Below are positions 27,195-29,186 of a stretch of 33,235 nt of DNA, piece after piece. Position 1 is the stretch's first letter. Each line of letters opens with the position of its first letter. Source of the stretch: Fimbriimonadaceae bacterium (GTDB taxonomy: Bacteria > Armatimonadota > Fimbriimonadia > Fimbriimonadales > Fimbriimonadaceae); contig JALOLT010000064.1 in assembly GCA_025455775.1 (NCBI GenBank), positions 1 through 33,235 of the forward strand. The letters run 5' to 3'. A program made the position numbers and the translations under genes. The notes under the pieces were generated by a model. It was not told the DNA's origin. It saw only the letters and a list, made by a program, of their open reading frames with translations, and ran no database searches.

Positions 27195-28037
27195 ATGCCA
27201 GAGCTACCAGAGGTAGAAGCGGTTCGCCGGCTCGTAGAGCGGGCTTTTTTGCACCAAAAGATCGAACAAGTTGACGTCGAGCCGGATGGGATCGTCTTTG
27301 AAGGGAAGGAACCGCACGAGATTCAAGCTGCCCTGGCAGGTCGTAAGGTGGAGGCTGTGTGTCGAAAGGGCAAGTTTTGGTGGCTTGAGTTTGCCGAGTC
27401 CCCGACCGTTATCCTGCACCTCGGGATGAGCGGGTGGGTTCGTGATCTCGGCGCAGATCAGGAAAGGCGGCTCGTCAATCACGGAAAGGCACCTCTTGAG
27501 GAAGAAGGACGCCCTCGCTTTCTTAAACTCCTGATGACAAGCGAATCAGGCCGGCGAATCGCTTTTACGGATGGGCGAAGGTTGGCCAGGATCTGGCTTT
27601 GTCAATCTGCTCAGCAAGATGAGAGGATCCAGCGTCTCGGGAGGGACATGTTCACGGAGCCCTATACGCAGACAGAACTTTCCACGATTCTGTCGAAGCG
27701 GAGTGCCCCGATGAAGGCCCTCTTGCTTGATCAGAGGATCTTTGCTGGGGTGGGAAATTGGGTGGCAGACGAGGTCTTGTACCAGGCTGGTATCGCACCC
27801 CAAAGGATGGCGAAATCTTTGGTTGGCGAAGAGGTCGAAAAGCTCCAACAGACCCTTGCGTCAGTCCTGAATCACGCAGTCTCGGTCGAGGCCGACGATA
27901 AGCTGTACCCGGATCACTGGCTTTTCCACTACAGGTGGGGGGGATCGAAGGGAAGAAACGAACTGAATGGTAACCAGATTTTGAGAGAGACGGTCGGCGG
28001 GAGAACAACTGCCTGGATTCCAAGCCTTCAACGATAA
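27195..28037 (+). CDS. mutM: Fpg/Nei family DNA glycosylase, plant-type zincless form
   Basis: Bifunctional base-excision repair enzyme that removes oxidised purines and nicks the strand. The 280 residues start MPELPEVEAVRRL, giving the catalytic P2 and E3; the DNA-binding lysine lies in RKGKFWWL (K60); the helix-two-turn-helix carries GVGNWVADEVLYQAGIAPQR. The C-terminus is unusual: instead of the four-cysteine zinc finger it reads YPDHWLFHYRWGGSKGR, then GGRTTAWIPSLQR, with no cysteine. Plant and fungal Fpg proteins have this zincless finger and the same N-W-x-A-D-E-V-L-Y-Q helix. The key arginine of the finger loop is kept in GGRTT. The ATG at 27195 follows AAGGG and is preferred over the seven-codon longer frame. 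Mono-cistronic, divergent from the acyl-CoA dehydrogenase. Confidence 0.9.
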   Translation: MPELPEVEAVRRLVERAFLHQKIEQVDVEPDGIVFEGKEPHEIQAALAGRKVEAVCRKGKFWWLEFAESPTVILHLGMSGWVRDLGADQERRLVNHGKAPLEEEGRPRFLKLLMTSESGRRIAFTDGRRLARIWLCQSAQQDERIQRLGRDMFTEPYTQTELSTILSKRSAPMKALLLDQRIFAGVGNWVADEVLYQAGIAPQRMAKSLVGEEVEKLQQTLASVLNHAVSVEADDKLYPDHWLFHYRWGGSKGRNELNGNQILRETVGGRTTAWIPSLQR

Positions 28038-28091: not shown

Positions 28092-29186
28092 ATGGCCTGG
28101 CAGGGATTGATTCACAAGTATGGAGAGCGGATGAAGCTCACTCCAGGTGCAAATCCTGTGACCTTGCATGAGGGGAATACTCCTCTGATTCCAGCACCTG
28201 ACCTTGCGAAGTGGATCGGCCACGGCATCGACCTTCACCTCAAGTACGAAGGGATGAACCCCACTGGCTCTTTCAAGGATAGGGGAATGACGACCGCCAT
28301 CACGGAGTCCCTCGCCAGAGGATCCAAAGCCGTCATTTGCGCTTCGACGGGGAACACTAGTGCTTCCGCCGCTGCTTATGCAGCAAGGGCTGGCATGACC
28401 TGCTTTGTTTTGGTTCCTGCAGGCAAGGTCGCGCTCGGGAAGATTGCGGGAACCCTGGCATACGGTGCAAGGGTTCTCTCGATTGATGGCTCCTTCGACA
28501 CTGCCCTCAACTTGGTGAGGAAGATCAGCGAAGACGGAGATGTCGATCTTGTGAACAGTGTGAACCCAGCAAGAATCGAAGGGCAACAGACTGCCGCCTG
28601 GGAGATCGTCGAGCAGCTGGGCCAGGTACCAGACTGGCTCTCCTTGCCAGTGGGGAACGCAGGGAACATCACTGCTTATTGGAAGGGCTTTTGTTCGAAA
28701 CCCTGTCTGAGTCCTTGTTCAGCGGCTTGCCTGCAATGTCCGATCGGGACGATCAAGCCAAGGCTCTTAGGCACCCAGGCAGCAGGTGCTGCTCCTCTGG
28801 TTTTGGGTCATCCGGTGGATCATCCTGAGACAAAGGCAACTGCCATCCGGATCGGGAATCCTGCCAGATGGGATGAGGCGATCGCTGCCCTGTCGGAATC
28901 AGGAGGTCACATCCTTGCCGCCCTGGATGAGGAGATCTTTGCAGCTTATTCTGCTGTTGCTCGAACCGAAGGAGTGTTCTGCGAGCCAAGCTCGGCTGCC
29001 TCTGTGGCTGGGTTGAAAAAGGCACTGGACAGAGGGGAAATCGAAGCAGCAGGCCAAACGGTTGTCTGTGTCCTCACTGGTAATGGGCTGAAGGATCCAG
29101 ACTCTGCGACCGAGTCAAGTAAGGGGTTGATCCCAACAGAGGCGACTTTCGACGCCCTCCGCCGATCCATTCTGGAGAACCTATGA
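28092..29186 (+). CDS. thrC: Threonine synthase (with a cysteine-rich insertion)
   Basis: PLP enzyme that converts O-phosphohomoserine to threonine. A 364-residue fold-type II protein with [11 protein letters not shown] (lysine K62 binds PLP), [37 protein letters not shown], the phosphate-binding [15 protein letters not shown] (186-200) and [12 protein letters not shown]. Between GF200 and PRLLG227 lies a loop of about 22 residues carrying cysteines at 201, 205, 209, 213 and 216; most homologues have about 12 residues here with a Y-H motif. All catalytic motifs are intact. GAGG five bases upstream supports the ATG at 28092. It overlaps thrB by ATGA (29183-29186), so the two are translationally coupled. 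Confidence 0.93.

Follow-up and report, generated by a model that had tools for sequence, protein, structure and literature searches.

Zincless formamidopyrimidine-DNA glycosylases (Fpg) of plants and fungi have been presented as a eukaryotic clade, and the zincless finger of human NEIL1 as having a separate origin (PMC3188539). The Arabidopsis enzyme, AtMMH/FPG, acts well on Fapy, Gh and Sp but poorly on 8-oxoG, a pattern that apparently stems from its short capping loop; in E. coli fpg, isoform 1 of AtMMH suppresses G-to-T mutation (PMC10573277). H2TH glycosylases have been described as missing from Archaea (PMC8307549). Bacterial OGG1 has been treated as rare and mostly confined to Firmicutes (PMC3397491, PMC8307549), and Clostridium OGG differs from human OGG1 at the opposite-cytosine residues of the human enzyme (PMC3397491). 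No report describing a plant-type Fpg in bacteria was found in the open-access literature searched.

The window, a stretch of 33,235 nucleotides from a Fimbriimonadaceae bacterium, contains on its forward strand an open reading frame (27195..28037) for a plant-type zincless Fpg of 280 amino acids plus stop, identified by Pfam and by its best PDB match; the features of the protein given below lie on the same strand. The frame starts with the ATG at 27195, where the earlier note had placed it, and its product begins with MPELPEVE. The features of the H2TH (Fpg/Nei) superfamily, Pro2-Glu3 and both domains, are all present. The N-terminal Fapy_DNA_glyco domain (27195..27593; PF01149, 101.6 bits, residues 1-133) and the H2TH domain (27636..27893; PF06831, 76.3 bits, residues 148-233) score above the Pfam cut-offs. 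Catalytic Pro2 and Glu3 (27198..27203), Lys60, Met78 and Arg128 of the N-terminal domain, Asn188 of the H2TH domain and Arg270 of the finger are invariant in 64 of 64 aligned proteins, from E. coli MutM to Arabidopsis; the H2TH domain also carries Lys174. In the established biochemistry of Fpg, Pro2 is the nucleophile once Met has been removed. The position of the void-filling Phe is occupied by Leu130 in the alignment, and nine of the ten Fimbriimonadaceae sequences have Leu there. The NCBIfam MutM models score below their cut-offs (167.6 against 203.3 and 160.1 against 212), and PF21218 Fpg-like_C gives 16.7 bits (E 0.006; cut-off 27.1). An H2TH search of the entire genome, which has 3.0 Mb and is 98% complete, returned the window Fpg as its single match.

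The earlier note had claimed that the finger (27936..28034) has no cysteine and that it resembles its plant counterpart, as does the H2TH motif. Both statements held. No Cys occurs C-terminal to the H2TH domain, the segments HWLFHYRWG (residues 241-249), GGRTTAWIP (268-276) and GNWVADEVLYQ (187-197) were all found, and their counterparts in Arabidopsis FPG are PSNWIFHNR...GGRTTAYVPELQ and GNWIADEVLYQ. The pattern P..WLFH.RWGG...GGRTTAW.P..Q is kept in 26 homologues of the same family, 47-58% identical to the window Fpg, and homologues in three further groups of bacteria keep the finger sequence too, so that the motif is not a matter of chance. Full-length members of the zincless type carry the signature P..WLFH.RWG...GRT.AW.P and no Cys4 set. 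The AlphaFold2 model, calculated from 26 sequences comprising only the window and the fetched loci, has a mean pLDDT of 92.5 (about 96 in the hairpin); it contains the zincless beta-hairpin that the earlier note had wished to see predicted, formed by strands 263-267 and 270-274 and carrying Arg270. A Foldseek search with this model placed four Arabidopsis FPG chains on top (3twk, TM 0.91, E 6e-30), followed by MutM (TM about 0.80, E 1.5e-22). Stop codons were observed in a few related genes: the frame of one Fimbriimonadaceae plant-type Fpg (G167:C1:2430269-2431054) is interrupted by a stop within the finger or close to it, and in two Verrucomicrobia genomes (L270, L271) a stop comes shortly after GGRTTAWVP of the plant-type Fpg.

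Arabidopsis thaliana FPG1/MMH (3twk, 3twl, 3twm) resembles the window Fpg over its full length, with 38% identity. It was the best match in a sequence search of the whole PDB (183 bits; the match spans residues 1-280 with the finger), the runner-up being Thermus MutM (81 bits), whose aligned parts stop at residue 233. The two proteins have in common the zincless finger, the short capping loop and the motifs GNW(V/I)ADEVLYQ, HNR/HYR and GGRTTA(Y/W).P. The window protein differs from the Arabidopsis enzyme in being bacterial, in lacking the plant C-terminal tail, in having Leu130 instead of the void-filling Phe, and in reading WGG rather than EKK after the HYR segment. The bacterial MutM/Fpg of E. 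coli and Geobacillus share with it Pro2/Glu3/Lys60, Met78, Arg128, Asn188 and the finger Arg270, but own a Cys4 zinc finger, which the window Fpg lacks. Their 8-oxoG capping loop is about 11 residues longer. In the alignment, the segment from residue 229 to Arg247 (27879..27935) has 19 residues in the window Fpg against 30 in E. coli MutM, and belongs to the same length class as that of Arabidopsis FPG. Human NEIL1 has a zincless finger too, but its sequence similarity is weak (24 bits). As judged from the predicted fold, the alignment and a tree with one plant sequence, the window protein appears to have the zincless hairpin, the short capping loop and the kinship to plant Fpg that characterise a plant/fungal-type Fpg (PFNei).

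In the trees, in which Arabidopsis FPG was the single eukaryotic sequence, the zincless bacterial proteins and Arabidopsis form one clade (100/99, full alignment), which is kept at 97/87 when the finger and capping-loop columns are removed. MutM, including the E. coli and Geobacillus proteins, forms a separate clade (100/99, full alignment). The proposed grouping with plant Fpg was thus recovered, and a placement inside zinc-finger MutM was not seen. Under a rival reading, the window protein would be a regular bacterial MutM whose zinc finger disappeared recently in this lineage, in convergence on the plant form, and which still acts mainly on 8-oxoG. Such a history agrees with the retained MutM catalytic core and with the AU test on the core alignment alone, which, the finger columns being absent, does not reject Arabidopsis together with MutM (p-AU 0.23); on the full alignment the same arrangement is rejected (p-AU 0.02). 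However, the zincless clade stays apart from MutM even when the finger columns are left out, the finger is common to all family members and has close relatives in three other phyla, and the capping loop is short too. A recent loss appears largely refuted by the tree and is very improbable.

Within the zincless clade, Arabidopsis FPG tends to fall inside the bacterial diversity, since the bacterial rows form a clade excluding it in 4% (core) and 10% (full alignment) of the bootstrap trees. A placement of Arabidopsis outside the bacterial rows is not rejected by the AU test (p 0.36), and in a quick 100-row tree it stood just outside them. Its nearest rows are those of Verrucomicrobia and Phycisphaerales, its exact place being without support. 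The suggested kinship of the window lineage to the source of the plant enzyme therefore stands as far as the grouping with plant Fpg is concerned, but the Fimbriimonadaceae are not the nearest bacteria. Transfer in the other direction, with an algal, plant or fungal gene entering these bacteria, would be compatible with the shared clade, which alone gives no direction, and with the AU result, which with one eukaryotic sequence leaves other placements open. It is improbable, however, given the deep bacterial diversity of the clade (four phyla, with about 40% identity between the bacterial groups), the rarity of the bacteria-only clade among the bootstrap trees and the bacterial or archaeal zinc-finger proteins that are the nearest outside neighbours.

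These closest outgroups are, in the trees, zinc-finger Fpgs whose loop is just as short, together with two actinobacterial proteins. The short-loop zinc-finger Fpgs (L036-L038, L040, L049, L065, L206-L208 and L223) come from Bacteroidota, Verrucomicrobia, other Armatimonadota and a Lokiarchaeota MAG. They resemble the window Fpg in their short capping loop, an FPxxWLxHxR-like segment and a GRTTY-like finger turn, but retain the zinc-ligand cysteines, four in most and three in L040, which seems to be one zinc ligand short. As a clade, they look intermediate between MutM and Fpgs of the zincless kind. Because they neighbour the zincless clade, the order of events read from the tree is that the loop was probably shortened before the zinc was lost. 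Two side observations concern other H2TH proteins. Fpg-like genes occur on archaeal-titled MAG contigs (L065, Lokiarchaeota; L079, Methanomassiliicoccaceae; L097, Euryarchaeota), which may be due to binning error. Second H2TH proteins of about 300 amino acids, Nei-like and with a zinc finger (L213, L214, L216, L217, L219-L221), come from the same family and order, have a conserved 30-residue tail and lie on a long separate branch of the tree.

The zincless Fpg is present in 66 of the 85 Fimbriimonadaceae genomes and, by scores and by reading of the sequences, is confined to this family among 291 Armatimonadota genomes; a Fimbriimonadaceae MAG (L032) has a homologue 58% identical to the window Fpg. 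Relatives of a Phycisphaerales, a Verrucomicrobia and a Bdellovibrionaceae genome also carry this type, with counts of about 18 of 61, about 16 of 97 and 12 of 99, respectively. The host range comprises at least four bacterial phyla among the matches listed and is probably wider than these groups. It is the host range that is unexpected; the kind of enzyme was already known. Eukaryotic contamination was rejected because the gene lies among bacterial genes and is family-wide. Plasmid and phage relatives were also set aside, their best matches reaching at most about 34% identity and being MutM or Nei where annotated. A protein-based scan of viral contigs gave 43 pattern matches and zero homologues, and the 80 stretches with the GGRTTAW DNA pattern in such contigs were accordingly treated as uninformative. 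A conserved gene neighbourhood was likewise dismissed, as tblastn of three neighbours against the homologue loci (mostly with about 1.5 kb of flank) revealed one other adjacency, that of acyl-CoA dehydrogenase in L032. The threonine synthase frame of the window contains, at 28686-28760, a 29-residue stretch that is unlike the family and more plausible in another frame, possibly owing to a pair of frameshifts that compensate each other or to a fault in the assembly.

The window genome also encodes a eukaryote-like OGG1 (G000:C78:9366-10235, reverse strand; locus L259:564-1439), which scores 145 bits to mammalian OGG1 versus 86 bits to Clostridium OGG and retains N149, R154, Y203, R204, K249 and D268. 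The catalytic Lys/Asp and the four opposite-cytosine residues are kept in this protein and in 15 family relatives. A MutY-like open reading frame was read from the sequence elsewhere in the genome; plants likewise encode both OGG1 and MutY. An OGG1 match was obtained in 64 of the 66 Fimbriimonadaceae genomes with plant-type Fpg, and the two others are drafts of 70-89% completeness. OGG1 homologues are common across Armatimonadota and occur also in Fimbriimonadia that have no plant-type Fpg, while Phycisphaerales genomes gave no match and Verrucomicrobia genomes no convincing one. For these reasons OGG1 was rejected as a specific tracker of the plant-type Fpg, and, given the Fimbriimonadia that have it by itself, co-occurrence alone is no proof of a division of labour. 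The pairing of Fpg with OGG1 fits what a plant-like division of labour would look like. Most Phycisphaerales carriers of the plant-type Fpg have a second, MutM-like gene, as do the Bdellovibrio-group carriers. In the Verrucomicrobia carriers one Fpg was found, a single H2TH protein being confirmed in one genome; since neither a second Fpg nor a convincing OGG1 was found there, the plant-type Fpg may itself handle 8-oxoG in these bacteria.

The reading that we prefer, with a probability of roughly 70%, is that the window protein is a working enzyme of the plant/fungal Fpg type, a bifunctional DNA glycosylase/AP lyase and member of an old bacterial clade, and that it would prefer Fapy lesions and hydantoins and leave 8-oxoG mainly to OGG1. 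With Pro2 as the nucleophile, it would remove oxidised purines and cleave the strand through beta,delta-elimination, the DNA being held by the H2TH motif and by Arg270 on the zinc-independent hairpin. An altered lesion preference, already raised in the earlier note, is a plausible consequence of the short capping loop. What we infer for the lesion preference, the division of labour and the role in vivo is that FapyG/FapyA and the hydantoins Gh/Sp would probably be preferred over 8-oxoG, because the loop that closes around 8-oxoG in MutM is cut short in the window Fpg, and that the eukaryote-like OGG1 would take care of 8-oxoG in this genome, and MutY of 8-oxoG:A. It is rather unlikely that the bacterial enzymes, although of the same clade, are general MutM substitutes with good excision of 8-oxoG in vivo, in which other contacts compensate for the short loop. 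The Verrucomicrobia members, with their sole Fpg and no convincing OGG1 detected, would suit such a role, and complementation of E. coli fpg by plant MMH has been described (PMC10573277); yet the loop is as short as that of Arabidopsis FPG, itself weak on 8-oxoG, and the window genome has a full OGG1.

Given its occurrence in at least four bacterial phyla, the zincless Fpg seems to be an old invention of bacteria and not a peculiarity of eukaryotes. In a scenario for which we consider the chances evenly balanced, the zinc ligands of a short-loop zinc-finger Fpg would have disappeared in an ancestral bacterium, and the resulting form would have spread over at least four phyla, from which plants and fungi acquired it; beside the eukaryote-like OGG1 of the Fimbriimonadaceae, it would constitute a bacterial counterpart of the pair of FPG and OGG1 in plants. 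The occurrence of a zincless Fpg and OGG1 in one bacterial family leads to the hypothesis of a bacterial origin of the plant enzyme. The short-loop zinc-finger Fpgs may represent present-day transitional forms between fingers with and without zinc, and the bacterial zincless Fpgs would provide simple proteins for testing the cause of the weak 8-oxoG activity of plant Fpg.
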